Shown: piece by piece, positions 1,530-24,426 of the stretch | How the letters are laid out: every line of letters begins with the position of its first letter | Numbering within the stretch: position 1 is the stretch's first letter | From: Bacteroidota bacterium | Lineage (GTDB): Bacteria > Bacteroidota > Bacteroidia > UKL13-3 | Reading direction: 5' to 3' | Length of the DNA stretch: 35,178 nucleotides | Assembly: GCA_947453415.1 (NCBI GenBank) | Contig: CANGGG010000031.1 | Span: 1 to 35,178 of the forward strand | Program-made: the position numbers and the translations under genes | Notes under the pieces: generated by a model | Database searches by the model: none | Seen by the model: only the letters and a program-made list of their open reading frames with translations | Told to the model about the DNA's origin: nothing

Positions 1530-1616
1530 TTTGGGATTGTTAAAAGTAAAATATTTTTTTTACTCAGTTCTAAAACTTTGTAATTAATTAATTATATAAT
1601 ATCTCAACAAATGAAA

Positions 1617-2093: not shown

Positions 2094-2199
2094 GATATTC
2101 TGATTTATTTCTAATTGTAAAACTATTTTTTAAAATGTAAATGTCAATTTTTTTTTATTCGTAAATATATAAATTTCTAATTATGAGTATGAAAATAAA

Positions 2200-3186: not shown

Positions 3187-3240
3187 TTAAATTTTTATTA
3201 TCAAAATATTTATAATAAATTTCAATTTACAAATACTTTA

Positions 3241-3281
3241 TTTTTTTTATAAAAAAAACACCTTTAAAAAAGTGTTTTTAA
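3241..3281 (-). terminator. Terminator-like hairpin between plsX and fabH
   Basis: On the minus strand an 8-bp stem (3254-3261 paired with 3272-3279, AAAAACAC/GTGTTTTT) is followed by a run of T ending near 3241. It lies directly after the plsX stop. The stem is A/T rich, so termination may be partial and would act as an attenuator inside the cluster. Confidence 0.5.
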
Positions 3282-3287
3282 ATTTTA

Positions 3288-4244
3288 TTATTGAATAGGA
3301 ACTAAGTTTTTAAATTCTTCTCGAACAATGTTACATAAATCTGAATTAATCACATCACGAGCAGAAAAAATCATATTTTTAAATGCTTTTGCATTTGAAA
3401 TTCCATGACCTATTAACACTGGTGCATTAACGCCTAAAATTGGAGTGCCACCATAATTTTCATAATTAAATCTGTCTAAAAAGTCATCTTTTACTCCACG
3501 TTTTTTCATAACAGAATAAAACGATTCGAAGGCTTTCAACACCACATTTCCAGTAAATCCTTCACAAACAATCACATCGCATTTATCCGACATAATATCT
3601 CTGCCTTCTACATTCCCAACAAAATGAAAAGAATTAGATTCTTCCATTAATTGATGAGCTGAAATAGTTACTAAATTTCCTTTTTCTTTTTCTTCACCAA
3701 TGCTTAATAAACCAATTCTAGGATCTTCAATTCCGTGAACATGTTTCATCATAAGGCTACCCAAAACGGCAAATTGATATAGAACATCTGGTTTACAATC
3801 GGCATTAGCACCAACGTCCAAAACCAAACAAAATTTACCATCAGGTCTTGGAAGTGTGGCAGTTATGGTTGGTCTAATTACACCTTCAATTGGTTTAATA
3901 GTAAACATGGAACCAACTAACATAGCACCAGTATTACCAGCGCTCACAAATGCATCAATTTGTTTGGATGCTAATAACTTAAACCCAACAGAAATACTTG
4001 AATCCTTTTTTTGTGAAATGGCTTTTGTAGGGTGTTCACCCATTCCTATCACTTCCGTGGTATGAACAATTTCTAAACGAGAATCGCTAATACCTTGGGA
4101 GTTTAATAAATTTTCTGCTTGTTCTTTATCACCAATCAATACAATTGTATCATTGCTACCAAGCTCTACAAGTGCTAAAATAGCACCTAAAACAGCTTCT
4201 TTGGGCGCAAAATCGCCACCCATAATGTCAAAACCAATTTTCAT
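3288..4244 (-). CDS. plsX: Phosphate acyltransferase PlsX
   Basis: Converts acyl-ACP and phosphate to acyl-phosphate, the acyl donor for PlsY in phosphatidic acid synthesis. The 318-residue protein starts with the family signature MKIGFDIMGGDFAPKEAV. It also contains SAGNTGAMLV (about 101-110), the LDVGANADCKP motif in mid-protein and CEGFTGNVVLKAFES towards the C-terminus, all hallmarks of PlsX. Length and motif order are normal. It lies between rpmF and fabH, the classic rpmF-plsX-fabH order. A hairpin in the 93-bp gap upstream may separate it partly from rpmF. Confidence 0.95.
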   Translation of the reverse strand: MKIGFDIMGGDFAPKEAVLGAILALVELGSNDTIVLIGDKEQAENLLNSQGISDSRLEIVHTTEVIGMGEHPTKAISQKKDSSISVGFKLLASKQIDAFVSAGNTGAMLVGSMFTIKPIEGVIRPTITATLPRPDGKFCLVLDVGANADCKPDVLYQFAVLGSLMMKHVHGIEDPRIGLLSIGEEKEKGNLVTISAHQLMEESNSFHFVGNVEGRDIMSDKCDVIVCEGFTGNVVLKAFESFYSVMKKRGVKDDFLDRFNYENYGGTPILGVNAPVLIGHGISNAKAFKNMIFSARDVINSDLCNIVREEFKNLVPIQ

Positions 4245-5303: not shown

Positions 5304-7532
5304 ATGAATCAATCAACCCAACTTATAAATATTTTAAACGAATTTGCAAAAGGAAGTGACCATGAAATTGATTTTGTAACACTTCAAAAATCAAAAACTC
5401 GTTTTCAAATTTCCGCTTCAAATAATTTTAATGAATTTATTGATCAACTGTATAACATAGGTTCATTTACAAATTTTGTTTTTGAAGCTAGGATTTGCAG
5501 TAAATCTGAATTTAAAAAAATTACAGATAAAATAACTTTTCCAATTTTGTTTTTCAAAACAAATCAAAAGGAATTAGTTCCGGTTTTACTAAAGCATTTT
5601 GAAAAAAAACAATATGAAACTATTGAATTTCATGAAAATGAAAATATTGAAGTAAATTATAGTACAACTGTAGAATTATCAAATTCAGCTAAATCAGCTG
5701 CTGATTTAATATTGGACAATCATTTATTGGCAGAAAAATTTGATGTTTCGAATTCAGCTGAAGAGCATATAATATATATTACTGGATATCATGTTGGCGC
5801 TATGTTAAATTACAACAATAAAGAAAAATCTAGTCCTTTTGAAAGGTTTATGAGTTTATTGAAAACCGAAAAAAAAGACATTAAATACATTTATTTCTTT
5901 GCCATTTTAATTGCAATTATCAACCTAGCCTTACCATTAGGTGTTCAATCAATAGTTGGTTTAATTTCGGGTGGTTTGTTATTAGAATCAGTAATCATAT
6001 TAATAGCTATGGTAATTATTGCCACAGGACTCTCGGGATATTTACAAATTCAGCAATTAAAAATGGTTGAAATTTTGTTACAACGGGTGTTTGCCAATGT
6101 AACTTTTGAATTTGCTTGGCGATTACCGAAAATAAAATCCGAAATTCTATTAAAGAACTATACTCCCGACATGGTCAATCGTTTTTTTGATGTATTAACT
6201 ATACAAAAATCATTGCCAAAAATATTGATAGATTTTACAGCAGCAATCATTCAAATTTCTTTTGGCTTATTGCTTTTATCTTTCTATCATCCTATATTTA
6301 TCGGATTTGGAATTGTATTGATTGTAATCATTATTATTATATTTTATACAACAGGTAAAAAAGCATTAGAAACAAGCATTTCTGAATCGAAATATAAATA
6401 TAAAGTGGCTTATTGGTTACAAGAAATTGGCAGAAATATCAATGCATTTAAATCAGCCGGAAAGTCCAATTTACCTATTCAAAAAGCAGATCATTTATTG
6501 AGTAATTATATCAATTATCGCAACAAACATTTCAAAATATTATTGAAACAATATGCATCAATAGTTTCATTTAAAACGCTAATTACCGCGTCTTTACTTA
6601 TTTTAGGAAGTTTTTTGGTGGTAAACAGGCAAATCAATTTAGGCCAATTTGTAGCCGCAGAGCTTATCATTGTTTTAATTATTAATTCAGTTGAAAAATT
6701 GATTTCTACCATTGATGTTTTTTACGATTTACTAACTGCTTTTGATAAAATAGGACAAGTGACCGATTTAGAAACAGAAAGTAATGCTGGTAGGGAATTA
6801 CATGATTTAGCTATTGACCAAAAATTTCAATTAAAAACTAATCAATTATCATATAAATATCCAGGTACAAAAAATCATATTTTAAATAATATAAATTTTG
6901 AAATTAATAATGGAGAACATGTTTGTATTACTGGTTTTGGCGATAGTGGTAAAACCTCATTCATTAAAATATTGGCCGGAATGTATAGTAATTATGAAGG
7001 CTCAATTTTATTAAATGATGTTTCGTTACGCGATTTAAATATTGATGTTTATAGAAACATCATTGGTGATAATTTATTACAAGATGAAATATTTGAAGGC
7101 ACCATTGAAGATAATATATTGATGGGTAGAAATGGCATTGAATTCAAAGAAGTAATTAAAGCCCTAAAAATTGTTGGACTAACTGATTTTATTGCTCAAT
7201 TAACTGATGGATTACAAAGCAATTTGTTGTCGGCAGGAACCAATTTCCCTAAAAGTATTATTCAAAAAATATTATTAGCAAGAAGCTTTGTTCAAAAGCC
7301 AAAACTGCTCATTATTGATGACTTTTTTTACAACATGAATCAAAAAGAAAACTCGCTTTTATTGGATTATATTTTTGAAAATAAAGATTGGGCATTGATC
7401 ATGGTTACATCACAAGATAGCATGATGAAAAGATGCGATAAAATTTTCATCATGAATAATGGAAGTATTGTTGAAACGGGAACTTATGATGAGCTAATGG
7501 CCTCCAGTTCATTAAACAATTTTTTGAATTAA
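5304..7532 (+). CDS. Type I secretion-type ABC transporter with degenerate ATPase
   Basis: A 742-residue ABC exporter half-transporter. Residues 1-190 form a soluble domain I do not recognise; it sits where T1SS exporters carry a C39 or C39-like domain, but no Cys/His peptidase motif is visible. Six membrane segments lie at about 195-465. The nucleotide-binding domain is at about 505-740. Walker A is intact (GFGDSGKTS, Lys550) and the Q-loop Gln593 is in LLQDEIFEGTIEDNI. The signature LSGGQ reads LSAGT, Walker B is LLIIDD so Asp673 replaces the catalytic Glu, and the H-loop His is replaced (VTSQD, about 701-705). ATP turnover should be slow or need another site. It starts an operon with the HlyD- and TolC-like genes. 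The substrate is unknown and no candidate cargo gene is adjacent. Confidence 0.85.
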   Translation: MNQSTQLINILNEFAKGSDHEIDFVTLQKSKTRFQISASNNFNEFIDQLYNIGSFTNFVFEARICSKSEFKKITDKITFPILFFKTNQKELVPVLLKHFEKKQYETIEFHENENIEVNYSTTVELSNSAKSAADLILDNHLLAEKFDVSNSAEEHIIYITGYHVGAMLNYNNKEKSSPFERFMSLLKTEKKDIKYIYFFAILIAIINLALPLGVQSIVGLISGGLLLESVIILIAMVIIATGLSGYLQIQQLKMVEILLQRVFANVTFEFAWRLPKIKSEILLKNYTPDMVNRFFDVLTIQKSLPKILIDFTAAIIQISFGLLLLSFYHPIFIGFGIVLIVIIIIIFYTTGKKALETSISESKYKYKVAYWLQEIGRNINAFKSAGKSNLPIQKADHLLSNYINYRNKHFKILLKQYASIVSFKTLITASLLILGSFLVVNRQINLGQFVAAELIIVLIINSVEKLISTIDVFYDLLTAFDKIGQVTDLETESNAGRELHDLAIDQKFQLKTNQLSYKYPGTKNHILNNINFEINNGEHVCITGFGDSGKTSFIKILAGMYSNYEGSILLNDVSLRDLNIDVYRNIIGDNLLQDEIFEGTIEDNILMGRNGIEFKEVIKALKIVGLTDFIAQLTDGLQSNLLSAGTNFPKSIIQKILLARSFVQKPKLLIIDDFFYNMNQKENSLLLDYIFENKDWALIMVTSQDSMMKRCDKIFIMNNGSIVETGTYDELMASSSLNNFLN

Positions 7533-7555
7533 TTACTAAAAAATAATAAAATAAA

Positions 7556-8896
7556 ATGGATCAAAATCCCTATAATAACATATCAAAGGAACTAAAAAAC
7601 AGTTCGCTTTATACCGTTAAATTAATTAATACACCTAAAAAATTTAAGACCATCAGGAACTGGCTTTCAGGCATATTTATTATACTTTTTTTGTGTATGT
7701 TTTTGCCTTGGCAACAAAATATAAATGGTAAAGGAAAAGTTACTCCATTTGCTCCTGAAGATAGGCCTCAAAACATTCCATCAATCATAGCTGGAAGAAT
7801 AGAAAGTTGGAAAGTGGTAGAGGGGCAATTTGTAAAAAAAGGTGATACACTGGTAGTAATAAGTGAGGTAAAAGAAAAGTTTTTTGACCCACAATTATTA
7901 AATAGAACAGATGGACAAATTAATAATAAAATAGAAGGTTTAGCCGCAAAAAACAGGAAAATATTAGCACTTGAAAAGCAAATTGATGCTTTAAAAAGTA
8001 GTGTTTCAATTAAACTTAAAATGGCTAAAAATAAAGTTTTACAAAGCGAATTTGCTGTAAAAGCAGAAAAAGGAAATTATGATGCTGCAATAGTGAACGA
8101 AACTTTGGCAATAAATCAGTTTGATCGATTGAATGAACTGTATAAAAAAGGATTAGCATCGCTTACTGAAATTCAAATTAGAACAAATAAAAAGCAAGAA
8201 GCAAAATCGAAAATGATAGAGGCAGAAAACAAATTCAATAAAGTTGAAAATGAATTGATCAATGCACGAATAGATTTGAATTTTATAGAGGCCGAATACA
8301 TTGATAAAATATCGAAAGCAGAATCTATTTTGGAAGAAACTGCAGGAGAGCTTTTTGAAAGTCAAGCTGATTTAATCAAACTGAAAATTGAATACAGTAA
8401 CTTACAATTACGAAGTGGATTTTATGCCATAAAAGCACCACAAGATGGATATTTGGTAAAAGTTACAAAAGCTGGAATTGGCGAAATAATAAAAGAAAAT
8501 GAAAATATTGCAAGTATTGTTCCAGCCTATACTAAAACTGCTGTAGAAATGACGGTTAGGGCTTTAGACATGCCACTAATTTATAAAGGCTGTAAAGTAA
8601 GAATTCAATTTGATGGTTGGCCTGCTTTAGTTTTTAGCGGTTGGCCAAGTGCAAACGTTGGAACTTTTGGCGGTTTGGTTCAAGTTATTGACAAAGTTGC
8701 TGACGAAAAAGGAAATTTCAGAATATTAGTTACGCAGGATCCTAACGATGTTCCTTGGCCAGAATTAATAAGAGCTGGTGGTGGAGTTTATGGTTGGGCC
8801 ATGTTAAATAGAGTTCCTGTTTGGTATGAACTATGGCGACAGTTCAATGCTTTTCCTCCCGATTTTATGGAACAAGCTAAATCAGATAAAAAATAG
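7556..8896 (+). CDS. HlyD-family membrane fusion protein
   Basis: The periplasmic adaptor linking the inner-membrane ABC transporter to the TolC-like channel. One membrane segment lies at about 34-51 (LSGIFIILFLCMFLPW). The first half of the lipoyl domain follows (about 80-103, GRIESWKVVEGQFVKKGDTL). A long helical hairpin comes next, rich in Lys/Glu/Ala (about 125-275). The second lipoyl half is KAPQDGYLVKVTKAG and a beta-barrel with FDGWPALVFSGWP follows. The C-terminal block VPVWYELWRQFNAFPPDF is, from memory, characteristic of a Bacteroidota adaptor subfamily. It starts 23 bp after the ABC gene and ends 8 bp before the TolC gene, so co-transcription is very likely. Confidence 0.9.
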   Translation: MDQNPYNNISKELKNSSLYTVKLINTPKKFKTIRNWLSGIFIILFLCMFLPWQQNINGKGKVTPFAPEDRPQNIPSIIAGRIESWKVVEGQFVKKGDTLVVISEVKEKFFDPQLLNRTDGQINNKIEGLAAKNRKILALEKQIDALKSSVSIKLKMAKNKVLQSEFAVKAEKGNYDAAIVNETLAINQFDRLNELYKKGLASLTEIQIRTNKKQEAKSKMIEAENKFNKVENELINARIDLNFIEAEYIDKISKAESILEETAGELFESQADLIKLKIEYSNLQLRSGFYAIKAPQDGYLVKVTKAGIGEIIKENENIASIVPAYTKTAVEMTVRALDMPLIYKGCKVRIQFDGWPALVFSGWPSANVGTFGGLVQVIDKVADEKGNFRILVTQDPNDVPWPELIRAGGGVYGWAMLNRVPVWYELWRQFNAFPPDFMEQAKSDKK

Positions 8897-8904
8897 AAAT
8901 TGAT

Positions 8905-10359
8905 ATGAACATAAAATACCATCCAATCATTTTATTTTTATTGCTTTTTGTACCTTTAAAATTATTGATAGCACAACAAAATGATGTGCAGTTAACTTTT
9001 CAAGATTTTTACCAATTGGTAGTGCAAAATCATCCCATTGCAAAGCAAGCAAACTTACTAAATGATAATGCTAAAGCTGAGTTATTAGCAGCCCGTGGCG
9101 CGTTTGATCCAATTATAAGTTCAACTTATGAAAGTAAATTTACAAATGGTAACAACTACTATACTTATTTTGAACCACAGCTAAAAATTCCAACAATTAT
9201 TGGCATAGATATAAAAGCCGGTTACGACCAAAGTGATGGAATTGCGGTAAGCAACGAAAGAGCAAAAATGATTGAAAGCAATGGCGTAATTAGTCAACAA
9301 TATGGCGAATATGGTATGTTTTATGGCGGAGTAAGCGTACCAATTTTACGAGGATTACAAACTGATAGCCGAAGAACAATATTGCGTCAAGCTCAATATT
9401 TACAAGGATTAAATGAAGCGGAACGCATAAAAATTATTAATAAATTATTTTTAAATGCAGCCAAAGATTATTGGGAATGGCAGTTGGCCTATGAAAAATT
9501 ACGATTGACACAATTCAATTACAAATTAGCAGAAACCCGTTTCAATTTTATAAGCAATAGAATAAAAGCTGGCGAAGATAAACCCATTGACAGCATAGAA
9601 GCTTTGATTGAATTAAAACGCAGAGAAACTATTTTACTTGAATCGGAATTAGAGTTTAAAAATAATGGCTTCAATTTGAGTAACTACTTATGGAATAATA
9701 AAAACGAGGCCTTGCAATTAAAGGAAAACATTACACCATCGGAACAAGGAAATGAGATAAATACAATTGCCAATGATTCCATTCAAAGAATGGTAAATTT
9801 TGCAGAAAATAATCATCCTGAATTACAGAAATTGCAGTTTAAAAACAAGCAATTAATGATGGATAAAAAATTAGCAATTGAAAACATAAAACCTCAATTA
9901 AATGTAGAATATTACCCATTCCAAACTTATAGCAAAGGAAGTTTAAACGATGTAAATAATGTGTTTGGTAGGCAATATAAAATGGGTGCAAGTTTTTACA
10001 GCAGTTTGTTTTTAAGAAAAGAAAGAGGAAAACTACAACAAGCAAATATTAAACTTAAAAACAATGATTTTGAAACACAACTTACTAAACGAGAAATTGT
10101 AAATTCGGTTTTTATGAGCTATAATCAATTAAAAAATTTAGAACAATTATTGGCCATTCAACAGGTATTAGTATTGAACGCCATTACCTTAAGAAATGCA
10201 GAAGAAACTAGGTTTGAAAGTGGTGAAAGCTCACTTTTTTTAGTAAACTCGCGTGAACGAAGTTTGATAGAAGCACAAATAAAACAAGCAGAAATTAAAA
10301 GTAAATATGCCAAAGCAAAAGTTCAATTGCAATGGGCTAGTGGAATAAAAATGTTTTAG
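8905..10359 (+). CDS. TolC-family outer-membrane efflux protein
   Basis: A 484-residue outer-membrane channel of the TolC type. The signal peptide is clear (MNIKYHPIILFLLLFVPLKLLIAQ). The mature part has two long helical repeats with DYWEWQLAYEKL and a TRFxxGE-type motif in each half (TRFNFISNRIKAGEDKP and TRFESGESSLFLVNSRE), the duplicated OEP fold. It ends the operon. Its stop lies only 6 bp from the stop of the convergent sbtA-like gene, leaving no room for separate terminators. Confidence 0.88.
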   Translation: MNIKYHPIILFLLLFVPLKLLIAQQNDVQLTFQDFYQLVVQNHPIAKQANLLNDNAKAELLAARGAFDPIISSTYESKFTNGNNYYTYFEPQLKIPTIIGIDIKAGYDQSDGIAVSNERAKMIESNGVISQQYGEYGMFYGGVSVPILRGLQTDSRRTILRQAQYLQGLNEAERIKIINKLFLNAAKDYWEWQLAYEKLRLTQFNYKLAETRFNFISNRIKAGEDKPIDSIEALIELKRRETILLESELEFKNNGFNLSNYLWNNKNEALQLKENITPSEQGNEINTIANDSIQRMVNFAENNHPELQKLQFKNKQLMMDKKLAIENIKPQLNVEYYPFQTYSKGSLNDVNNVFGRQYKMGASFYSSLFLRKERGKLQQANIKLKNNDFETQLTKREIVNSVFMSYNQLKNLEQLLAIQQVLVLNAITLRNAEETRFESGESSLFLVNSRERSLIEAQIKQAEIKSKYAKAKVQLQWASGIKMF

Positions 10360-10365: not shown

Positions 10366-11328
10366 TTAAAAGTGTTGAACTATTAAAAAATATATTGGCA
10401 TTCCAATGGTAATATTTACAGGGAAAGTTACAGCAAGTGCCATAGGCAAATAAAGTCCGGGATTTGCCTTAGGAACATTAATTTTCATGGCTGCTGGCAC
10501 AGCAATGTATGATGCACTTGCGGCCAATACAGCAAACATAAAACGGTTAGTAATATCTGAAGTAACAAACGAACTTATATAAGCAAAAATACAGCCATTA
10601 ATAATTGGAATTATAATGGCAAACAGAAAAGGAAACCATCCAAATGAAAAGAAAGACTTTAATTTTTTTCCACTTGAAATTCCCATATCTAGTAAAAAAA
10701 TAGCCAAAAATCCTTTGAACAAATCGGTGGTAAAGGGCTTAATTCCTTCCGCTTGTTTATCGCTTGCTAATAGTCCAATTGTTAAACTTCCTAAAATCAA
10801 CAATACACTTCCATTGGTTAATGAATGTTTGAGCACATCGTGTTTTTTAACAGTATTAACTTCCTCTTTATTAAAAATAGAGATTAACACTAAACCAATG
10901 ATAATAGCAGGAGATTCCATTAAAGCCATAATTGCAACCATATGTCCGTGCAAACCTAATTGGTGTGATTCAAGGTAAGAAACAGCTGTTACAAAAGTTA
11001 CAGCGCTTACTGAACCATATGCCGCAGCTATTGCACCTGCATCAAAAACATTTAATTTTCGTTTTAAAATAAAAAAAGTGTAAAAAGGAATTATTAACGA
11101 AATGAAAATGCCAAATAACATGGACCATAAAATTTCAGTTGTAAATGTTTCATGCGATAGCTCTTGACCACCTTTAAATCCAATAGAAAAAAGCAAATAA
11201 ATAGTAATAAACTTTGATGAATTAGCGGGTATTTCTAAATCGCTTTTTAAATAAACAGCAACGATGCCAAGTACAAAAAAAAGCAATGCAGGATTTCTGA
11301 GATTTTCAATTAGAAAATTGATGTTCAT
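10366..11328 (-). CDS. sbtA: SbtA-type sodium-dependent bicarbonate transporter
   Basis: A 320-residue inner-membrane protein with about ten hydrophobic segments, of the SbtA/DUF897 family. Cyanobacterial members import bicarbonate with sodium. Both duplicated core motifs are visible: AYGSVSAVTFVTA (about 103-115) and ASASYIAVPAAMKINVPKANP (about 270-290). The cytoplasmic loop between the halves is short (about 152-170) compared with the cyanobacterial protein. No SbtB (PII-like) gene is adjacent. It is the last gene of a six-gene run and starts 12 bp after pyrC. In a heterotroph it could feed carbamoyl-phosphate synthase and biotin carboxylases; that role is inferred. The first 15 codons have a second copy at 16421-16465. 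Confidence 0.85.
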   Translation of the reverse strand: MNINFLIENLRNPALLFFVLGIVAVYLKSDLEIPANSSKFITIYLLFSIGFKGGQELSHETFTTEILWSMLFGIFISLIIPFYTFFILKRKLNVFDAGAIAAAYGSVSAVTFVTAVSYLESHQLGLHGHMVAIMALMESPAIIIGLVLISIFNKEEVNTVKKHDVLKHSLTNGSVLLILGSLTIGLLASDKQAEGIKPFTTDLFKGFLAIFLLDMGISSGKKLKSFFSFGWFPFLFAIIIPIINGCIFAYISSFVTSDITNRFMFAVLAASASYIAVPAAMKINVPKANPGLYLPMALAVTFPVNITIGMPIYFLIVQHF

Positions 11329-11340
11329 ATAATTTTTTTG

Positions 11341-12687
11341 TTATCTTATTTTTGAGAATTTAAGTCTTTTTCCTTTGTTATTTTCATGGAATTTACCTTG
11401 GTCATAAACCAAGTTTCCATTGACAAATGTTTTAATAATTTTACTATTAAAGCATTGATTTAAGTATGGCGACCATCCACATTTATAAAGAATGTTTTCA
11501 GGTGTTACCACCCATTCTTTATTTAAATCTACTAAAACAATATCGGCATAATACCCTTCCCGAATATAGCCCCGTTCTTTGATTCTATAAATTTCTGCAA
11601 CGTGATGACTCATTTTTTCAGCAATTTTTTCAATACTGATTTTACCTTGATGATAAAGGTTTAGCATTGCTGGCAAAGCATGTTGAACCAATGGACCGCC
11701 AGACATTGACTTGAAATATGAACCACTTTTTTCTTCAATTGTATGTGGGGCATGATCTGTTGCAATGATATCAAGTGTGTTATTCAAAAGTGCCGCAAGT
11801 AATCCGTTTTTATCTTCCTCCGTTTTAATTGCAGGATTCCATTTAATTTTAGCCCCCAATCTTTCATAATCTTTATCTGAAAACCAAAGATGATGGATGC
11901 ATGCTTCTGCAGTAATTCTTTTTTCTCTAACAGGCAATTTGTTTTCAAACAAATTGGCTTCTGCAAGGGTAGAAATATGAAATAAATGCAGGCGGTTATT
12001 GTATTTTTTTGCGATTTCTAAAACGCGTTTTGTGGCTGCATAACAAGCTTCTTCACTTCTTATTTTTGGATGAAATTTAAAGGGGATATTTTCCCCATAT
12101 TGTTTGCGGTAATGGTTTGTATTGTTTTTAATGATTATATCGTCTTCACAGTGCAATGCAACCAAAGAATCTGTTCGAGAGAAAAGTGTTTCTAAAAATT
12201 CCGGATAATTTGCCAAAATGCCCTCATCATTATTAAAATATAATCCATCATCAGTTATTCCACAAACATTTTCATTGTCAGTTTTTAAAGCTTCTTCTAA
12301 ATTGTTTTGATTGATTCCCATAAAAAAGGAATAGTTAGCCAAAGATGTTTTTGATGCTATGGAATATTTCTCCTCTAACAACACTTGCGTTAATGTATTT
12401 GGAATGGTGTTTGGCATTTCCATAAAAGAGGTTATACCACCGGCTAATGCTGCCCTTGATTCGGAGTAAATATTACCTTTATGGGTTAAACCTGGCTCAC
12501 GAAAATGAACTTGGTCATCAATTATTCCGGGTAAAAGATATAAACCTTTTGCATCAATAATATGAGCATTATTATCATTAATAACAGGAGCAATATTTTC
12601 AATTCTTTCACCAATAATTAACACATCGGCAACTGTAATTTTGCCTTCATTAACTATGTGTGCTTGCTTTATTATTATTCTTTTCAT
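11341..12687 (-). CDS. pyrC: Dihydroorotase
   Basis: Closes carbamoyl-aspartate to dihydroorotate in pyrimidine synthesis. It is a 448-residue amidohydrolase. Metal/substrate motifs are DDQVHFREPG (57-66), HCED (179-182), FHIST (236-240) and ATDHAPHT (309-316, Asp311). Two positions differ from many dihydroorotases: the first His of D-x-H-x-H is Gln59, and the block normally K-x-FMGSSTGNM is GITDDGLYF (143-151), so there is no carboxylated lysine there. I recall this variant from other Bacteroidota dihydroorotases, so it is probably functional. Hydantoinase or allantoinase is less likely because of EMPNT and SMSGGPLVQHALPAML. It sits 8 bp after the DUF6671-like gene. Confidence 0.9.
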   Translation of the reverse strand: MKRIIIKQAHIVNEGKITVADVLIIGERIENIAPVINDNNAHIIDAKGLYLLPGIIDDQVHFREPGLTHKGNIYSESRAALAGGITSFMEMPNTIPNTLTQVLLEEKYSIASKTSLANYSFFMGINQNNLEEALKTDNENVCGITDDGLYFNNDEGILANYPEFLETLFSRTDSLVALHCEDDIIIKNNTNHYRKQYGENIPFKFHPKIRSEEACYAATKRVLEIAKKYNNRLHLFHISTLAEANLFENKLPVREKRITAEACIHHLWFSDKDYERLGAKIKWNPAIKTEEDKNGLLAALLNNTLDIIATDHAPHTIEEKSGSYFKSMSGGPLVQHALPAMLNLYHQGKISIEKIAEKMSHHVAEIYRIKERGYIREGYYADIVLVDLNKEWVVTPENILYKCGWSPYLNQCFNSKIIKTFVNGNLVYDQGKFHENNKGKRLKFSKIR

Positions 12688-12695
12688 AATAGTAT

Positions 12696-13532
12696 TTATG
12701 GGTTACAAATATCACAGTACATTGGATTTTCCGTCTGTTTTCCATGAGGATATGTTTCTTCTTTGGTGAAGGAACATTTATGACAAGAAAAAATAAAACT
12801 TAAAATACTTCTTGTTGGAAAACGACATACCGAACAGGGTAATCCATGTTTTGCTTCAGTAATTCCAAATCCGGGCATTTGGCAATCCGGACATCGACTG
12901 TTTATTTTTTCAATCAATTTTTTAGTTGCACGCGCTATTACTTTCATTCTTGTAGGATTATACATAGCCCGCATGTCTGTTTCTATATATACTTTTCCGC
13001 CATCAGAAATGAAATGAGAAAAAACGCTTTTTAATTGATCTAAATTGGTTATGCCTTTTACAATGTTACTGTAATCAGCTTTTGATTTTCTAAGAATCAA
13101 GCCATGAGAAGGAAAGTTTGCTTTGCTTGCAAAATCATTTAATTCGGTTTCTGTTTGAATTATTGAACCATTGAAATTAGTTTCATTACTTATTTCCCTG
13201 ACTACAATTTCTAAATTATTCTTCTTGTCTATCATTAGCAAGAACTCATCATCTGCTGAAATAAATGGCAAAGATGGGTGAGGACCAAAAGAACCTTCAC
13301 TGGCAATGGCTAAATCACAATGATTTAATTCCATTGCCATCAGGCACTTGATTTTTGCGGTAGTAATAGGGTCGAATTTTCTTTCCACCTCACCGGTAAA
13401 AGTGCCAAGTTTATCAGTATCTAAATTAGAAGCAACAAAACATTTTACGGCCAATTCTTTTTCTAAAATAGGTGCAAACACTTTTTCCTTTTGGTGTTTA
13501 GTTGCAATAATTAAATGTCTTCCCTCAAACAT
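12696..13532 (-). CDS. DUF6671-like protein with double zinc ribbon
   Basis: A 278-residue protein of unknown function. The N-terminal domain (1-200) has conserved-looking motifs GTFTGEVERKFDP (43-55), ASEGSFGPHPSLPFI (77-91) and GLILRKSKADYSNIVKGI (144-161). The C-terminal quarter carries four C-x-x-C pairs (C214/C217, C233/C236, C250/C253, C273/C276), enough for two zinc sites. The motifs match my memory of DUF6671 proteins, but this could not be searched. It is wedged between a 57-aa membrane protein (2-bp gap) and pyrC (8-bp gap). No enzyme activity can be assigned. Confidence 0.75.
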   Translation of the reverse strand: MFEGRHLIIATKHQKEKVFAPILEKELAVKCFVASNLDTDKLGTFTGEVERKFDPITTAKIKCLMAMELNHCDLAIASEGSFGPHPSLPFISADDEFLLMIDKKNNLEIVVREISNETNFNGSIIQTETELNDFASKANFPSHGLILRKSKADYSNIVKGITNLDQLKSVFSHFISDGGKVYIETDMRAMYNPTRMKVIARATKKLIEKINSRCPDCQMPGFGITEAKHGLPCSVCRFPTRSILSFIFSCHKCSFTKEETYPHGKQTENPMYCDICNP

Positions 13533-13534
13533 TT

Positions 13535-13708
13535 TTATTTAATTTTCTTACTATTTTCATTTAAAAATTTGATTGCTAAAGCACCCATTATTATTCCAAA
13601 GGAAGAAAAAAGCTGTACGTTTGACTTATCATTTATTGTAAATGCCATTATCAAAAAGGCAAGCATAAGGAATAAGCAAAAAACTATTTTTATTTGATAA
13701 AAGTTCAT
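13535..13708 (-). CDS. Small membrane protein, 57 aa, unknown
   Basis: A short open frame, ATG at 13708 to TAA at 13535, encoding 57 residues. Two hydrophobic stretches are visible: KIVFCLFLMLAFLIMAF (about 7-23) and LFSSFGIIMGALAIKFL (about 33-49). A short NDKSN turn lies between them and the tail is basic (ENSKKIK). Its start comes 2 bp after the TAG of the 80-aa gene (TAGTGATG), and its stop lies 2 bp before the next ATG. That tight spacing on both sides is strong evidence it is a real, translationally coupled gene. I do not recognise the family; a two-helix membrane hairpin is the only structural statement I can make. Confidence 0.7.
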   Translation of the reverse strand: MNFYQIKIVFCLFLMLAFLIMAFTINDKSNVQLFSSFGIIMGALAIKFLNENSKKIK

Positions 13709-13710
13709 CA

Positions 13711-13953
13711 CTAATCAACTTTAATTATTACTTCAACTTTTACACTTTGGGTTTTCGAATTGATAATTTTCCTCAATTCAATAAGTTCTTTTTGTAATTC
13801 CTTTATTTTAGTTTCCCTAGTTTTTATATCCTCTTCATTACTATGGCTATTTATTTTGCGCTCATGATATTTTATTTTTATATGTATCATTTGAGCTATA
13901 AGTTCTACAGCATCTTGGGAGTTAAATTCTCCTTTTATAAGTTGAATTTCCAT
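13711..13953 (-). CDS. Small coiled-coil protein, 80 aa, unknown
   Basis: An 80-residue, soluble, strongly charged protein. It begins MEIQLIKGEFNSQDAVELIA. The middle (about 30-70) is rich in Lys/Glu with heptad-like leucines and isoleucines (NEEDIKTRETKIKELQKELI), so a coiled coil is likely. The short C-terminus (SVKVEVIIKVD) looks like a beta strand. It starts 10 bp after the isocitrate dehydrogenase stop and ends 2 bp before the 57-aa membrane protein, so it should be co-expressed with both. I recall similar unnamed small proteins in Bacteroidota but no function. Confidence 0.75.
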   Translation of the reverse strand: MEIQLIKGEFNSQDAVELIAQMIHIKIKYHERKINSHSNEEDIKTRETKIKELQKELIELRKIINSKTQSVKVEVIIKVD

Positions 13954-13963
13954 ATAGCTACGA

Positions 13964-15400
13964 TTATTGCCCTTGGCCTAATGAATATGCTACCTTACCA
14001 TCAAATGAATATAGGTTTTCTGTTTTTATGCTATCAATGTTTTCATTGAGTGCATTATTCAAAAGTTCTATGATGTTTGATTTATTTATTTCAGCATTTT
14101 CCGAAGGTTTAAAGCGACATCTCCAATGATCTGTACAAAATGTTTCATTAAAGCCATCTGGCCATACTTTAATTCCTCTGTTTGTAATCATAGAAAGTTT
14201 TAGTACATTACTTTCTATTTTTTTAATTTTTCCAGCTAATTCGTTGGGATTAGCACCGCTCCAATGAACAAAAATATCTACACCTACTAAATCTTTTTTT
14301 GCGGCAGGTTTACGCACATATTTTGGTAGGTTAAGGGCTGAATTATTTGCATAAGAAACAGGCTTTAATATATTTGGTTTTTGACCAAGATTTGAAATTA
14401 CCGCATTTGCAAATTCTTTGGTTCCTAGTTTTTGTCTACTGATTCCTTCTTTAAAAATATCGTAAGTATGATTTCCTTCTTCTAAAGTTTTAAGCCAAGC
14501 ATTTTGAACTTTTTCTGCTATTTCTGTTTGTCCAATATGATTTAACATCATAATGGCACCTTGTAATAATCCTGAGGGGTTGGCTACATTTTGTCCTGCT
14601 CTTCGAGGAGCGGAACCGTGTATTGCTTCAAACATAGCACATTCTTCACCTATATTTGCTGAGCCAGCTAAACCAACCGAACCTGTAATTTGTGCTGCTA
14701 CATCGCTTAATACATCGCCATATAAATTTGGCATTACAATTACATCAAAAATTTCTGGCGTGTCAGCCATTTTTGCTGCACCAATGTCTATTATCCAATG
14801 TTCATTTTCTATGTTTGGATATTCTTTGGCAATTTCATCAAACACTTGGTGAAACAAACCATCAGTTTGTTTCATAATATTGTCTTTAGTAAAACAAGTT
14901 ACTTTTTTGCGGTTTTGTTGTTTTGCATATTCAAAAGCATAACGAACTATTTTTTCACAACCGGGTCTACTAATTAGTTTTAAGCATTGTACTACTTCGT
15001 CTGTTTGTTGGTGTTCAATTCCCGCATATAAATCTTCTTCATTTTCTCTAACTATTACAATATCCATTACAGGATGTTTTGTACTTACAAAAGGATGCAA
15101 ACTCATGCAAGGCCTTACGTTTGAATACAATCCAAGAAACTTGCGAGTAGTTACATTTAAGCTTTTATAACCGCCACCTTGTGGAGTAGTGATAGGGGCT
15201 TTAAGGAAAATTTTGTTTTTTCTAATAGTTTCCCACGATTCAGATGCAATGCCAGAAGTATTACCTGCTAAATACACTTTTTCGCCTACTTCAATTTCAT
15301 CAATTTCGAGTTTGGCACCTGCTGCTAAAATAATTGCTAACGTGGCGTCCATTATCTCAGGACCAATTCCGTCTCCTTTTGCTACTGTTATTCTTGTCAT
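13964..15400 (-). CDS. icd: Isocitrate dehydrogenase, long-C-terminus form
   Basis: Oxidises isocitrate to 2-oxoglutarate and CO2. The core (1 to about 335) has the dehydrogenase motifs: KGDGIGPEI (8-16), the substrate loop SLNVTTRKF (Ser80, Asn82, Arg86), NVRP (94-97), YAGIEH (125-130) and the metal-binding NLYGDVLSDVAAQ (Asp229, Asp233). The cofactor-selecting stretch is HGSAPRRAGQNVANP (261-275). Arg266-Arg267 replace the Lys-Tyr of NADP enzymes and are compatible with NADP, but this is not proven. An extra C-terminal domain of about 140 residues (340-478) is present, as in the Thermus enzyme. It heads the six-gene run and is divergent from a LysR gene. Confidence 0.9.
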   Translation of the reverse strand: MTRITVAKGDGIGPEIMDATLAIILAAGAKLEIDEIEVGEKVYLAGNTSGIASESWETIRKNKIFLKAPITTPQGGGYKSLNVTTRKFLGLYSNVRPCMSLHPFVSTKHPVMDIVIVRENEEDLYAGIEHQQTDEVVQCLKLISRPGCEKIVRYAFEYAKQQNRKKVTCFTKDNIMKQTDGLFHQVFDEIAKEYPNIENEHWIIDIGAAKMADTPEIFDVIVMPNLYGDVLSDVAAQITGSVGLAGSANIGEECAMFEAIHGSAPRRAGQNVANPSGLLQGAIMMLNHIGQTEIAEKVQNAWLKTLEEGNHTYDIFKEGISRQKLGTKEFANAVISNLGQKPNILKPVSYANNSALNLPKYVRKPAAKKDLVGVDIFVHWSGANPNELAGKIKKIESNVLKLSMITNRGIKVWPDGFNETFCTDHWRCRFKPSENAEINKSNIIELLNNALNENIDSIKTENLYSFDGKVAYSLGQGQ

Positions 15401-15460
15401 GTTTTATTGTTTTAAGTTTAACACCGCAAAATTGACATTTCTAATTCATAAGTTTTTATT

Positions 15461-15468
15461 TATATTTG
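15461..15468 (+). promoter_or_regulatory. Candidate -7 box for the LysR gene
   Basis: TATATTTG lies 24 bp before the LysR start in the 92-bp divergent gap. The gap must also hold the promoter of the icd run, whose -7 box I could not pick out. A LysR regulator bound here could control both directions, but I see no convincing T-N11-A operator. Confidence 0.4.
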
Positions 15469-15492
15469 TAATGTAAACCATAAAAATAATTT

Positions 15493-16416
15493 ATGAACTA
15501 TACCTTAAATCAATTGCAAATATTTTTGAAAATTGTACAAACAAAAAGCGTAACAAAGGCCTCGGAAGAATTGAATCTTACCCAGCCAGCGGTTTCTATC
15601 CAATTGAAAAATTTGCAAGACCAATTTGACATTCCATTAACGGAAGTGGTAGGTCGAAAAATTTACATTACTGATTTTGGATTAGAGATTGCGGAAGCAG
15701 CTGAAAACATCATTAACCAAGTTTATGCCATTAACTATAAAACCTTAGCTTATAAGGGTCAATTAACAGGTCGTTTAAAGATTTCTGTAGTATCAACTGG
15801 AAAATATGTGATGCCTTACTTTTTAACCGAATTTATGCAGCAACATGACGGAATAGATTTATTGATGGATGTTACTAATAAAAATAAAGTGATTGAGAGT
15901 TTAGAAAACAATGAAATAGACTTTGCATTGGTTTCCATTTTGCCAAGTAAACTGAATATTGAGAAAATGGATTTACTCCAAAATAAATTATACTTGGTAG
16001 GTAGTTCCGAAAAAAAAATAAAAAAAAATACAAGTACAAAAGAAATATTTAAAGATTTGCCTTTAATTTTCAGAGAAAATGGTTCTGGTACACGACAAAC
16101 AATGGAAAATTTTATTGAACGCAATAAGATTTCAGCATTAAAAAAGATGGAGTTAACTTCCAATGAAGCTGTTAAACAAGCATTATTAGCGGGTTTAGGA
16201 TATTCAATTATGCCCTTAATTGGAATTAAAAACGAACTACACAACAATGAACTGCAAATTATTCCAATTAAAGGTCTTCCAATTAAAACAACTTGGAGTT
16301 TAATATGGTTAAAGGGAAAGAAACATGCTCCAGTTTCTAAATCTTTTTTAGAATATTTAAAAAAAGAAAAATCACAAATCGTACAAAATAAGTTTAGTTG
16401 GTATGAACAGTATTAA
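15493..16416 (+). CDS. LysR-family regulator, CbbR/CmpR-like
   Basis: A 307-residue LysR-type transcription factor. The winged helix is at 1-60 (LNQLQIFLKIVQTKSVTKA, then LNLTQPAVSIQLKNLQDQF). The effector domain spans about 90-300. EVVGRKIYITDFG after the helix and FRENGSGTRQTMENF (about 194-208) are features I associate with the CbbR/CmpR/RbcR branch, whose cyanobacterial members (CmpR, CcmR/NdhR) govern inorganic-carbon genes including sbtA. It is divergent from icd, 92 bp apart, and an sbtA remnant abuts its 3' end. Control of the icd-to-sbtA run is inferred from these neighbours. Confidence 0.82.
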   Translation: MNYTLNQLQIFLKIVQTKSVTKASEELNLTQPAVSIQLKNLQDQFDIPLTEVVGRKIYITDFGLEIAEAAENIINQVYAINYKTLAYKGQLTGRLKISVVSTGKYVMPYFLTEFMQQHDGIDLLMDVTNKNKVIESLENNEIDFALVSILPSKLNIEKMDLLQNKLYLVGSSEKKIKKNTSTKEIFKDLPLIFRENGSGTRQTMENFIERNKISALKKMELTSNEAVKQALLAGLGYSIMPLIGIKNELHNNELQIIPIKGLPIKTTWSLIWLKGKKHAPVSKSFLEYLKKEKSQIVQNKFSWYEQY

Positions 16417-16420
16417 AAAT

Positions 16421-16465
16421 TAATGCTGAATTTCTAAGATTTTCAATCAGGAAATTTATGTTCAT
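16421..16465 (-). pseudogene. Remnant of a second sbtA gene (first 15 codons)
   Basis: On the minus strand, ATG at 16465 opens MNINFLIENLRNSAL, matching MNINFLIENLRNPAL of the intact sbtA at 11328. By eye 38 of 45 bases agree. Five of the seven differences are synonymous; the other two, in one codon, give Pro to Ser. The similarity continues a few bases upstream of the ATG. It ends 4 bp from the LysR stop and the frame then runs into the antisense of LysR. The codon-biased differences show it descends from a translated sbtA copy, now truncated. Confidence 0.75.
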
Positions 16466-16535
16466 ATATTTTATTAATTATTTTTTTGAATTAATAATGC
16501 GTCACAAAAATAATCGTTAATAAATGTTTTCTAAT

Positions 16536-19624: not shown

Positions 19625-19951
19625 TTATAATAAATTATCAATGATACTTTTCAAAACTTTATCATCAATAGTATCAAATTCTGATTTGTCATAAATGGTT
19701 AATAAATAAACTTCTTTGTTTTCATTTACTAAATAGGTAATTACTCTGCCACCTCCACTTTTACCCTTGCCTTTACTTTTTATTGACAATCTAATTTTAA
19801 ATAAATTGTTTCCAAGTGGGATTCCATTGTCTGGTTCATTGCTTAGCACTTCTCCAAGTTCCAATAATTCTTGTTTTAAAGAAGGGAATTTTTTAATTAG
19901 TCGTTTTGCTTCTTTTTTAAATTTATCTGAGGGAATTACCTTATAGCTCAT
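19625..19951 (-). CDS. RelE/ParE-type toxin
   Basis: A 108-residue protein of the RelE/ParE superfamily; RelE-type members cut mRNA at the ribosome, ParE-type poison gyrase. Visible features are the N-terminal YKVIPSDKFKKEAKRLIKKFPSLKQELLEL helices (residues 3-32), LFKIRLSIKSKGKGKSGGGRVITYLV in the sheet and a YLLTIYDKSEFDTI strand with a C-terminal helix. The Gly/Lys-rich loop and RVITY are typical. Its start overlaps the antitoxin end by 11 bp. Which of the two activities applies cannot be told. Confidence 0.82.
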   Translation of the reverse strand: MSYKVIPSDKFKKEAKRLIKKFPSLKQELLELGEVLSNEPDNGIPLGNNLFKIRLSIKSKGKGKSGGGRVITYLVNENKEVYLLTIYDKSEFDTIDDKVLKSIIDNLL

Positions 19952-20265: not shown

Positions 20266-22380
20266 TTATTGCGCAATAATACTAATTGCTGTTCCTCCAC
20301 CTGACGCTAACTTTAAAGTCAGTTTAGACTTATTTGTAATTGTTATTTTTTCAATTACATAAGCTTCAGGATTCTTGTCCCAACTTGCATCGGCAGCATC
20401 TTTATAAATAGTAGCTGTATACTTTTTACCTTTATCCAAAAAGCTAAAATCCATGTTTAAATCTCTGGCATTTTCATCGGTAATACTACCTAAAAACCAA
20501 TTGTTAGTTCCTTTTGCTTTACGAGCAATGGTTAAATACTCGCCTGGTTCCGCATGAATTACTTTGGTATCATCCCAATCAACTGCTACATCTTTTATAA
20601 ACTGAAAAGCATCGGGTTTTGCTTCATAATTTTCAGGTAAATCGGTTGCCATTTGAACTGGACTATATAAAGTTAAATACAAGGCCAATTGCTTGGTTAA
20701 AGTAGTATGCACTTGTTCTTTTGCATCGGGATAATAATTGCTCTTTTTAATTTTAAAAATTCCTGGCGTGTAATCCATCGGACCACCCATTAAGCGTGTA
20801 AAAGGTAAAATGGTTTCATGCTCTGGTGGATTTCCCTCACTCCAAAAATTGAACTCTTGTCCGCGAGCAGCCTCTGCTGCCATAAAGTTAGGATAAGTAC
20901 GGTGTAAACCAGTAGGACGAACTGGTTCATGTGCCACTACCATAATATCGTATTGCGCAGCTTTTTTGATGGCACGTAAATAATGATTTACCATCCATTG
21001 TCCATCGTGAAATTCGCCACGAGGAATGATTTTTCCTACATACCCTGATTTTAAAGCATGGCTTCCAACACTTCCCATTAAACGGTATGCAGAATCAATC
21101 CAACGTTCGTAATTTGTAACACTTCCACTTGTTTCGTGGTGTGTTATCATGCCAACGCCTTTGCTTTGCGCATAAGCATTTAAACCTTTAAAATCGTAAT
21201 CGGGATAAGGAGTTACAAAATCAAAAACATCTTCTTTCCATTTACCAAACCAATCTTCCCAGCCATCGTTCCAACCTTCTACTAACACCCCACCAAAACC
21301 ATTTTTAGCAGCAAAATCAATGTATTTTTTGGTGTTTTCAGTAGTTGCACCATGTTTGGTTTTTGTCTTTTGTTTTCCGTCTGAACCTGCATCACTGGCC
21401 GATTGTCCTCCAGCAAAATCCCATGTTGAAAGTCCTAAATGCATTTCTAACCAAATGCCACAATACTTCATTGGTTTGATATAATTGGTGTTGGTTAACT
21501 TACAAGGTTCATTTAAATTTAAAATGGTTTTTGAAGCAATAATATCTCTTGCATCATCGCTAATAATAATGGTTCTCCAAGGAGTGCTGCATGGTGCGCG
21601 CATGTATGCTTTATTGCCAACGGCATCGTTAGCCAAAGTTGATGTAGCTTCAAAAGTTGATAAATTAAATTTTAAATCCATAGCAGGATAATTAATTAAC
21701 GCAGCTTCGTGAATATTTACATACACATTGTCTTTGGTTTTTATCATTAAAGGAGTTTGAACAAATGCTCCTTTGATAGGAGTAGCAGTAAAAATTGCAC
21801 CATCGCGTTTCTTCGCTAATTTTTCAATTTCCGAAATTTGTGAAGTGTTATAAGTGTATTCGTTGGTATCAAAATCGCCTGGCATCCACCAAATTTTATG
21901 GTCACCGGTTAAGTTAAATGTGCTTAATTCATCGGCTACTACAAAATGGAATAAATTAGGCTGCTCAGGAAAATGATACCTGAATCCAACACCATCGTTA
22001 AACACCTTAAACACCACTTGAAGTATGCGCGGCTTTTCCCCTCTTTCTTTTAAAGTAATGGCTATTTCTTTATAGTTGTTTACAATGGTTTTAGTTTCGC
22101 CCCAAACAGGAGTCCAAGTTTCGTTAAAGTTACTTGAGTCAACTTGCAAAATGCTAAAGTTATTCAATAAATCAGCTTGGTCATTTATTTTAAAACCCAA
22201 GTTAGAAGTTTCTACAATGGGCTTGTTTTTATAATTTACATTATAAACTAAAGCACCAGCCGCGTTTAATTGAAGTGAAACGGAAATCTTTTTGTTAGGG
22301 GAATTTACTGTAAAAGTTTGCGCAGAAACTGCACAAGTACTTGCCAATAAAATAATACTGAGTAATTTTTTAATTTTCAT
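20266..22380 (-). CDS. GH97 alpha-glucosidase (SusB-like, inverting type)
   Basis: A secreted glycoside hydrolase of family 97, 704 residues, with signal peptide MKIKKLLSIILLASTCAVSA. The order is N-terminal beta-sandwich (about 22-290), TIM barrel (about 300-600) and C-terminal sandwich. Catalytic and calcium residues of SusB are preserved with the same spacing: Glu368 (VEGW), Glu416 (HHETSG), Glu485 (AHEPV) and Glu509 (GQEFN). These correspond to SusB E391, E439, E508 and E532. That set belongs to the inverting alpha-glucosidases, not the retaining alpha-galactosidase branch. It is downstream of the PUL but separated from it by 529 bp of repeats and has its own terminator, so co-regulation is uncertain. 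Confidence 0.93.
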   Translation of the reverse strand: MKIKKLLSIILLASTCAVSAQTFTVNSPNKKISVSLQLNAAGALVYNVNYKNKPIVETSNLGFKINDQADLLNNFSILQVDSSNFNETWTPVWGETKTIVNNYKEIAITLKERGEKPRILQVVFKVFNDGVGFRYHFPEQPNLFHFVVADELSTFNLTGDHKIWWMPGDFDTNEYTYNTSQISEIEKLAKKRDGAIFTATPIKGAFVQTPLMIKTKDNVYVNIHEAALINYPAMDLKFNLSTFEATSTLANDAVGNKAYMRAPCSTPWRTIIISDDARDIIASKTILNLNEPCKLTNTNYIKPMKYCGIWLEMHLGLSTWDFAGGQSASDAGSDGKQKTKTKHGATTENTKKYIDFAAKNGFGGVLVEGWNDGWEDWFGKWKEDVFDFVTPYPDYDFKGLNAYAQSKGVGMITHHETSGSVTNYERWIDSAYRLMGSVGSHALKSGYVGKIIPRGEFHDGQWMVNHYLRAIKKAAQYDIMVVAHEPVRPTGLHRTYPNFMAAEAARGQEFNFWSEGNPPEHETILPFTRLMGGPMDYTPGIFKIKKSNYYPDAKEQVHTTLTKQLALYLTLYSPVQMATDLPENYEAKPDAFQFIKDVAVDWDDTKVIHAEPGEYLTIARKAKGTNNWFLGSITDENARDLNMDFSFLDKGKKYTATIYKDAADASWDKNPEAYVIEKITITNKSKLTLKLASGGGTAISIIAQ

Positions 22381-22425
22381 TTGATTATTTTCTTTGAAAC
22401 AAAAATAAACTTTTTAGTGGGAGAA

Positions 22426-22583
<158 letters not shown>

Positions 22584-22584
22584 A

Positions 22585-22692
22585 TTATTTATGTTGATTG
22601 AGCATCCATTCATATGTTTCTTTGATTTGATATTCACGCGTCCAAAAATCGTGCATGTCAAAATCAAAAATTTCTAATTTTATATCTTTCAT
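22585..22692 (-). CDS. Possible small ORF or gene fragment, 35 aa
   Basis: An ATG-to-TAA frame of 35 codons, MKDIKLEIFDFDMHDFWTRE and then a helix-like YQIKETYEWMLNQHK. It starts just after the repeat array. I do not recognise it. Its FDMHDF motif resembles FDMHNF in the next fragment (22739-22858), so both may be debris of related short genes. Coding status is uncertain. Confidence 0.3.
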   Translation of the reverse strand: MKDIKLEIFDFDMHDFWTREYQIKETYEWMLNQHK

Positions 22693-22738
22693 TACAGTCT
22701 TTTAGTTTTTTAAAAAAATATTGATTGAATATTGAAGA

Positions 22739-22858
22739 TCAAAGACAATAGAAATTTCTGACGTTGTAAGTGTTGTGATTAAACCCTTCCCAAATTAAAT
22801 TTGTAAATTCATTTAATGAATCCGCACCATTATTTTGTTCAACATCAAAATTATGCAT
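22739..22858 (-). pseudogene. Possible gene fragment, 39 codons, related to the neighbour
   Basis: A frame open from 22858 (ATG) to TGA at 22739 gives MHNFDVEQNNGADSLNEF and a short remainder. It is open upstream for about 12 more codons, which reads RNIEFFDMHNFDVE. The FFDMHNF core parallels FDFDMHDF in the 35-aa frame. No homologue comes to mind. The rest of 22384-22909, outside the repeats and these frames, shows nothing I can identify. Confidence 0.25.
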
Positions 22859-22909
22859 ATCAAAAAATTCAATATTCCGATACGTTGGAAATATTCAAGT
22901 AATAGTAAA

Positions 22910-24367: not shown

Positions 24368-24426
24368 TTAAAAATATTTTTTTATTGGTTGCTATGCAAT
24401 GAATAATTTTAAAAAAAGGAAAAAAA

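Follow-up and report, generated by a model that had tools for sequence, protein, structure and literature searches.

In a 35,178-nucleotide stretch of DNA from a Bacteroidota bacterium (contig CANGGG010000031.1, analysed over its full length and called the window below; the host genome is a 2.9-Mb, 107-contig assembly), six genes on the reverse strand stand opposite a divergent gene for a LysR regulator. They encode, from first to last, an isocitrate dehydrogenase (IDH; gene icd), an 80-amino-acid (aa) protein of an unnamed family termed cc80 here, a 57-aa protein (mem57), a DUF6671 protein, the dihydroorotase PyrC, and an SbtA-type transporter of the Sbt_1 family. This locus is likely an operon by which a heterotroph supplies itself with inorganic carbon (Ci) when CO2 or bicarbonate is low, under the control of an NdhR/CcmR-like LysR. 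The run of six genes opposite LysR had been described in a first-pass annotation, and all seven open reading frames (ORFs) lie where that annotation placed them and on the strands it gave. Measured from ORF coordinates, the gaps from icd to sbtA are 10, 2, 2, 8 and 12 bp, and the divergent spacer between lysR and icd is 92 bp; with gaps of only 2-12 bp, icd to sbtA may be carried on one transcript. The same annotation had suggested a bicarbonate-supply module, and this suggestion is supported with regard to heterotrophic Ci supply under a CcmR/NdhR-like LysR, but not with regard to the small proteins, which had been offered as possible substitutes for SbtB.

The LysR regulator (15493-16416, forward strand; LysR_substrate 2.4e-38, HTH_1 2.1e-16) belongs to the NdhR/CcmR-CmpR subgroup. 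Its closest solved structure is NdhR/CcmR (5y2v, 2.9e-52, 34% identity over 290 aa), and the other solved relatives are CmpR (5z49, 1.4e-30) and CcpC (5.4e-13); the best CbbR model of NCBIfam, NF045990, scored 178.2 bits, which is below its curated cut-off of 450. The residues that hold 2-oxoglutarate (2-OG) in NdhR are given in a 2026 review as Ser224, Asn225, Tyr105, and a lysine printed as 'Lys10' (PMC13249358), the last of which was read as Lys104 by sequence numbering. All four are kept in the window LysR, as Lys104, Tyr105, Ser223, and Asn224, and across 75 LysR sequences the lysine is conserved in 73, the tyrosine in 75, the serine in 69, and the asparagine in 75. The residue set of NdhR for 2-phosphoglycolate (2-PG) was compared as well (Thr101, Thr102, His130, Asn164, Arg195, Thr201, and Arg267), and here His130 is replaced by Lys, Arg267 by Thr or Ser, and Thr101 by Ser, the remaining four being kept. 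The loss of 2-PG residues fits a host without 2-PG from RuBisCO, and the host genome gave no RuBisCO match. A set of 117 genomes of relatives was also searched (G numbers denote genomes and L numbers denote loci), and a RuBisCO match was found in only one of them, the 410-contig assembly G004. This large-chain match (G004:C142:2348-3268) comes from a same-genus assembly with 4% contamination, and represents either contamination or a real gene. The relationship to NdhR and CmpR and the conserved 2-OG residues agree with the earlier claim of a carbon-type LysR related to CcmR/NdhR, and point to an NdhR-like regulator that probably senses 2-OG.

The spacer beside lysR is nearly identical whichever gene comes first on its other side, reading CATAAATTATTTTTATG..ATTACAAATATAAATAAAAACTTATG..CAATTTTGC in the aligned spacers, and it contains two dyads, ATAA-N7-TTAT over the LysR start codon and ATAA-N8-TTAT farther along, which together make up an operator of about 50 bp. 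In the window, the entire operator match to the model R1 occupies 15444-15495 on the reverse strand (48.4 bits, E 3.6e-12), with dyad 1 (CATAAA-N5-TTTATG; 15479-15495, reverse strand) overlapping the LysR start codon and dyad 2 (ATAA-N8-TTAT; 15448-15463, reverse strand) beside it, both of which are kept in the aligned LysR spacers. The putative icd-sbtA promoter is marked by CAATTTTG (15427-15434, reverse strand), a match to a motif of the LysR spacers that resembles the Bacteroidota -7 box. Of 72 loci, 49 have a -7-like box, [TCA]AnnTT[TC]G, between positions 53 and 80, 42 of them at an identical position, and shuffling gave an expectation of 4.7%.

A 50-bp operator matrix was scanned over the loci and over a Markov-1 null, and 2.4 Mb of the null yielded no match above 12 bits. 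Dyad 1 occurs also at sites distant from LysR starts. Away from LysR, the operator was found before icd (L035, L062, L097, L098, L100, L105, L156, and L170), before sbtA (L044 and L049), before a carbonic anhydrase (CA) gene followed by sbtA (L127 and L181), before dabB (L185), before pyrC-DUF6671 (L135 and L143), and before DUF6671-Sua5 (L166); in L157, it precedes a 334-aa ORF upstream of sbtA, the sequence of which reads as Sua5. Weaker or unassigned matches to the matrix precede other or unmapped genes (L036, L040, L118, and second matches in L044 and L135). When a sequence model was searched across the 117 whole genomes under Infernal's stricter filters, with which weak sites are missed, 42 sites were returned in 36 genomes, each located at LysR, at icd, or at a gene of the sbtA region. 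Every one of the 36 genomes is among the 46 carriers of LysR, and none of the 71 LysR-less genomes gave a site in this search; in the host genome, the window site is the sole operator match reported. A search of a phylum sample with the same filters, and so with the same blindness to weak sites, found an operator site in 23 of 396 genomes. In 20 newly fetched stretches of the phylum, the downstream genes are nearly always icd-cc80, cc80-DUF6671-Sua5-sbtA, (cc80)-dabBA, or sbtA, and in one stretch SulP lies farther down an icd-cc80 run. The operator searches are partly circular, the model having been built mainly from LysR spacers, and independent evidence comes only from the sites away from LysR. 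Among relatives, the shared dyad precedes sbtA, CA-sbtA, and dabBA, a comparison from which LysR control of Ci uptake genes is predicted; a regulon unrelated to inorganic carbon, which the first-pass annotation had named as one outcome that would count against it, was not what was seen.

The neighbourhood is also conserved in other Bacteroidota, where a search for the same gene order had been proposed as a check and where the order was indeed found; an absence of conservation, another refuting outcome named beforehand, was not seen. In the relatives set, Sbt_1 matches occur in 46 of the 117 genomes, LysR orthologues in 46, DUF6671 in 33, and cc80 in 21 (the last with a single-sequence query). 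Many of the loci are contigs of metagenome-assembled genomes (MAGs), and there is some overlap between G-numbered and named loci, as with L031 and L111. The whole window gene order recurs in L031; L041 has this order with the 80-aa and 57-aa genes undetected, and reduced versions are present in L035, L042, L048, L053, and L057. In the same set, LysR is paired with sbtA, without icd, at about 10 loci, and with icd, without sbtA and mostly with cc80, at about 15. Named genomes were scanned with DUF6671, giving 80 loci, in which an arrangement of LysR divergent from (icd)-cc80-mem57-cc80b-DUF6671-Sua5-PyrC-SbtA recurs with its parts variably present, in Flavobacterium isolates as well as many Bacteroidota MAGs. 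After deduplication by a 300-bp stretch of lysR, 74 distinct LysR loci were left, near which ORF clustering placed DUF6671 at 45, cc80 at 41, SbtA at 39, IDH at 36, Sua5 at 21, and PyrC at 18 loci, the counts for DUF6671, Sua5, and PyrC being too high, since DUF6671 had served to fetch 29 of the 74 loci. Almost without exception, these six families lie on LysR's divergent side and on the opposite strand, and any other family is found near at most 5 of the loci. In the 45 loci free of the DUF6671 bias, the counts are cc80 24, IDH 21, SbtA 18, DUF6671 15, and PyrC 3. Chance adjacency of the genes was considered, and was rejected on the neighbour tally and the operator.

The last gene of the run (10366-11328, reverse strand) encodes a 320-aa Sbt_1 protein (PF05982, 9e-115; 383.6 bits with a cut-off of 27), the sole relative of which in the Protein Data Bank (PDB) is Synechocystis SbtA (7cye, 1.4e-27). 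The assignment of bicarbonate as its imported substrate is drawn from genomic context, not from residues. In L092, cc80-DabB-DabA stands in sbtA's stead (DabA PF10070, 1.5e-244), and L185 carries DabB-DabA-CA-DUF6671; SulP and a beta-CA lie near LysR, though not adjacent, in L087, and a beta-CA with a signal- or lipoprotein-signal-like N-terminus adjoins sbtA in L127, L162, and L181. A further locus, L190 (5247-7513), has CA and SulP genes convergent with sbtA, and thus three inorganic-carbon genes. A P-II/SbtB neighbour was found at 0 of 76 loci of the window SbtA type and at 3 of 4 loci of a second SbtA type, which is about 40% identical. Within the same bacterial family, the second Sbt_1 type followed by a P-II (SbtB-like) gene was noted at L067 (8716-9993), L068, L069, and L269, and in L269 LysR diverges from the second-type gene, and a cc80 gene has an operator of its own. 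At L051, L052, L058, and L059, sbtA directly follows an HlyD-TolC run, with no LysR present; the window has a transporter-HlyD-TolC run (5304-10359) convergent with sbtA.

The IDH of the run (13964-15400, reverse strand; Iso_dh 9.6e-94) is of the TIGR02924/PRK09222 type (NCBIfam PRK09222, 789 bits with a cut-off of 509), and PyrC (11341-12687, reverse strand) matched the PRK09236 equivalog with 642 bits (cut-off 535). The host has a second IDH, an NADP-IDH of another family (TIGR00127; C2:38742), and two more copies of PyrC, one 54% identical on C9 and one 27% identical on C21. Both window genes are therefore paralogues of genes elsewhere in the genome, PyrC being a paralogue of a presumed housekeeping copy. 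An altered metal-site motif in the PyrC of the module was considered and rejected, as this protein shares the reading DxQVHFR[ED] with nearly all other copies. In relatives, an AAA_26 (BioD-like) gene lies between PyrC and SbtA (L174), and a class-III aminotransferase gene, possibly BioA, precedes Sua5 (L179). CO2 is a substrate of dethiobiotin synthetase, and bicarbonate is one of Sua5. For the human homologue of Sua5, a Km of 13-31 mM for bicarbonate has been reported (PMC5951830). Biotin carboxylase, BCCP, FabH, and PlsX-like genes were recognised by eye at 183-4244 of the window (reverse strand), a group that includes a bicarbonate-using enzyme and has no operator match.

The DUF6671 protein (12696-13532, reverse strand; 278 aa; PF20376, 3.6e-104) gave an AlphaFold2 (AF2) model with a predicted local distance difference test (pLDDT) score of 91, and the modelled fold resembles that of ITPase/RdgB/YjjX/Maf (Foldseek probability 1.00 to 1k7k and 1u14, with E about 5e-4 and TM-scores of only about 0.3-0.56). 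Its C-terminus has four conserved cysteine pairs (CxxC), which would form zinc ribbons. DUF6671 may have a wider role, because in many genomes it also adjoins other, presumably housekeeping, pyrC copies that lack LysR. No prior description of DUF6671 was found in the open-access literature. The DUF6671 gene of G004 (L031, 9383-10216, reverse strand) has an in-frame TGA.

Family searches with the 80-aa protein (13711-13953, reverse strand), Pfam included, and with the 57-aa protein (13535-13708, reverse strand; start ATG, with an alternative GTG at 13711) gave no match above cut-off. The cc80 family spans about 80-110 aa and has two types, which can stand in tandem; the AF2 model of the window member is beta-alpha-alpha-beta with a pLDDT of 94, and a fold search with it against the PDB returned no match with E below 0.5. 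The 57-aa protein probably has two membrane helices, judged by eye, and its homologues lie upstream of DUF6671, for example in L031, L072, L111, and L114. The first-pass annotation had proposed the two small proteins as possible partners of SbtA that replace SbtB, a role consistent with the lack of P-II neighbours of the window SbtA type and with a cc80-like gene directly preceding sbtA in L056. However, cc80 follows icd in complete genomes that have no sbtA (G021 and G091), and cc80-like genes precede dabBA in relatives; on these grounds the 80-aa protein was rejected as a specific SbtB substitute, and an SbtA partnership of the small proteins is very improbable. Because of the same two arrangements, cc80 is more likely a protein of the regulon than a partner of SbtA.

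The module has likenesses in known systems. With the cyanobacterial NdhR/CcmR regulon (sbtA/B, ndh-I3, and bicA) it shares the LysR subgroup, the 2-OG residues, an SbtA-type transporter together with other Ci uptake genes, and the N8 spacing of half-sites (ATAG-N8-CTAT for NdhR, ATAA-N8-TTAT here), but the host has no RuBisCO, the 2-PG residues His130 and Arg267 are changed, the gene set includes IDH, PyrC, Sua5, DUF6671, and cc80, and there is no SbtB neighbour. Like the CmpR/CbbR-type LysRs that stand beside the operon they control, the regulator is divergently placed and has a conserved Lys/Ser/Asn ligand site, whereas the CbbR model stays below cut-off and Calvin-cycle or cmp genes were not seen at the loci. 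From cyanobacterial SbtA-SbtB, which supplies the only solved relatives of the transporter (7cye, 7cyf, 7egk, 7egl, and 8zor), the Sbt_1 protein differs in the lack of an adjacent P-II gene and in two of four proposed substrate residues. Non-autotrophs require systems for the supply of CO2 or bicarbonate (PMC8567241). Those of heterotrophs (MpsAB/DabAB and carbonic anhydrase) likewise provide bicarbonate for anaplerosis and biosynthesis, and DabAB is within the relatives' regulon, but an Sbt_1 carrier, a dedicated LysR, and paralogous metabolic enzymes in the operon set the present module apart.

In the mechanism proposed, LysR would bind both dyads of the spacer (15401-15495), of which one covers the regulator's own start codon and the other lies immediately upstream of the promoter, and would set the transcription of icd-cc80-mem57-DUF6671-pyrC-sbtA, probably in response to 2-OG, which IDH produces. 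Bicarbonate would be brought in by the Sbt_1 protein, and the enzymes would be extra copies for a CO2-releasing step (IDH) or for pathways that depend on bicarbonate or CO2 (PyrC here; in relatives Sua5 and, in single loci, BioD-like and BioA-like genes), which may keep these steps running under bicarbonate scarcity, with DUF6671 and cc80 as regulon-wide helpers. Several observations weigh against this reading. PyrC itself uses no bicarbonate; DUF6671-PyrC(-Sua5) is found without LysR in many loci, and its main role may lie elsewhere; at many LysR loci icd is the only partner (IDH being present in 21 of the 45 unbiased loci), and in 6 of those 45 the divergent side shows no listed family. The bicarbonate site proposed for Synechocystis SbtA consists of Ser114, Tyr140, Ser324, and Ser327 (PMC8352866), and two of these four differ in the window SbtA, Tyr140 being Met134 and Ser327 being Ala276. 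Finally, the 2-OG site of NdhR overlaps the ribulose-1,5-bisphosphate (RuBP) site of CmpR, which has an equivalent Lys/Ser/Asn (PMC13249358), and because CmpR holds RuBP with these residues, 2-OG is an effector that we infer.

The frequent pairing of LysR with icd, several times in genomes that have no sbtA, would also be expected if LysR were mainly a regulator of icd at this node of the tricarboxylic acid (TCA) cycle, a citrate or 2-OG sensor like CcpC, with sbtA, pyrC, and the other genes as passengers of the promoter; this is unlikely, as the same operator stands before sbtA, CA-sbtA, and dabBA where no icd adjoins, and NdhR and CmpR are much nearer relatives of the regulator than CcpC is. 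The Met and Ala replacements in the transporter are uniform across the window SbtA subfamily, and a transport assay of a non-cyanobacterial Sbt_1 member was not found in the literature read, two points that would suit another anion as substrate, e.g., a dicarboxylate connected with the reaction of IDH. Such a substrate is quite unlikely, since the same regulon has DabAB in the place of sbtA and a signal-bearing carbonic anhydrase, both of which point to inorganic carbon, and since Ser108 and Ser273 (the equivalents of Ser114 and Ser324) and the equivalent of the Na+-site Ser322 are retained. The modelled ITPase/YjjX/Maf-like fold of DUF6671, and the occurrence of PyrC-(Sua5)-DUF6671 without LysR in many Bacteroidota, would suit a separate unit for nucleotides or tRNA modification, with NTP house-cleaning suggested by the fold, that in some lineages simply came under the LysR promoter. 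Some of the LysR-less copies nevertheless carry a LysR-type operator (L135, L143, and L166), and DUF6671 stands beside LysR and sbtA far above chance, so that a separate unit is somewhat unlikely.

The presence of the block at sbtA differs within the genus. In G008 (L032), adeC is directly followed by sbtA and the LysR-to-pyrC block is missing; this genome has no LysR orthologue and no DUF6671, and its IDH is only of the other type. In the window, a relic of the sbtA 5' end (MNINFLIENLRNSALIF...; 16415-16466, reverse strand) lies at the 3' end of LysR and aligns to the adeC-sbtA junction of G008. Because of this relic and the state of G008, the LysR-to-pyrC block was probably gained or lost at sbtA in one piece, with 16415-16466 as the old breakpoint. 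Farther along the window, a 108-aa protein resembling RelE-type toxins (19625-19951, reverse strand) and a polysaccharide-utilisation locus with glycoside hydrolases, SusD-/SusC-like proteins, and a sensor-like protein (20266-35059, reverse strand) were recognised by eye.

Little is known of how heterotrophs sense and survive a shortage of CO2 or bicarbonate, although supply systems (carbonic anhydrase and MpsAB/DabAB) have been described; in the literature searched, no dedicated regulator of such supply was found. The open-access literature likewise yielded no prior account of an SbtA-LysR module in Bacteroidetes, the SbtA-LysR papers found being cyanobacterial, and no prior description under SbtA with Bacteroidetes and proteorhodopsin or under heterotrophs at low CO2. 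We tentatively propose, as a reading that falls a little short of an even call, that heterotrophic Bacteroidota respond to bicarbonate starvation through a dedicated system, in which a 2-OG-sensing, NdhR-like LysR that has very few operators in any one genome would switch on bicarbonate import and reserve isozymes for steps linked to CO2 or bicarbonate (IDH, PyrC, Sua5, and occasionally a BioD-like protein), and in which DUF6671 and cc80 would act. Sequence comparison across Bacteroidota thus predicts a regulator, its operator, and a defined set of genes, which can be tested in culturable strains (carriers include Flavobacterium sandaracinum LB-D12, locus L138, and Pontibacter aydingkolensis, L157), and DUF6671 and the unnamed 80-aa family gain a physiological context. 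The finding also suggests that the synthesis of t6A in tRNA (Sua5) and of pyrimidines may be protected against low bicarbonate in these bacteria.

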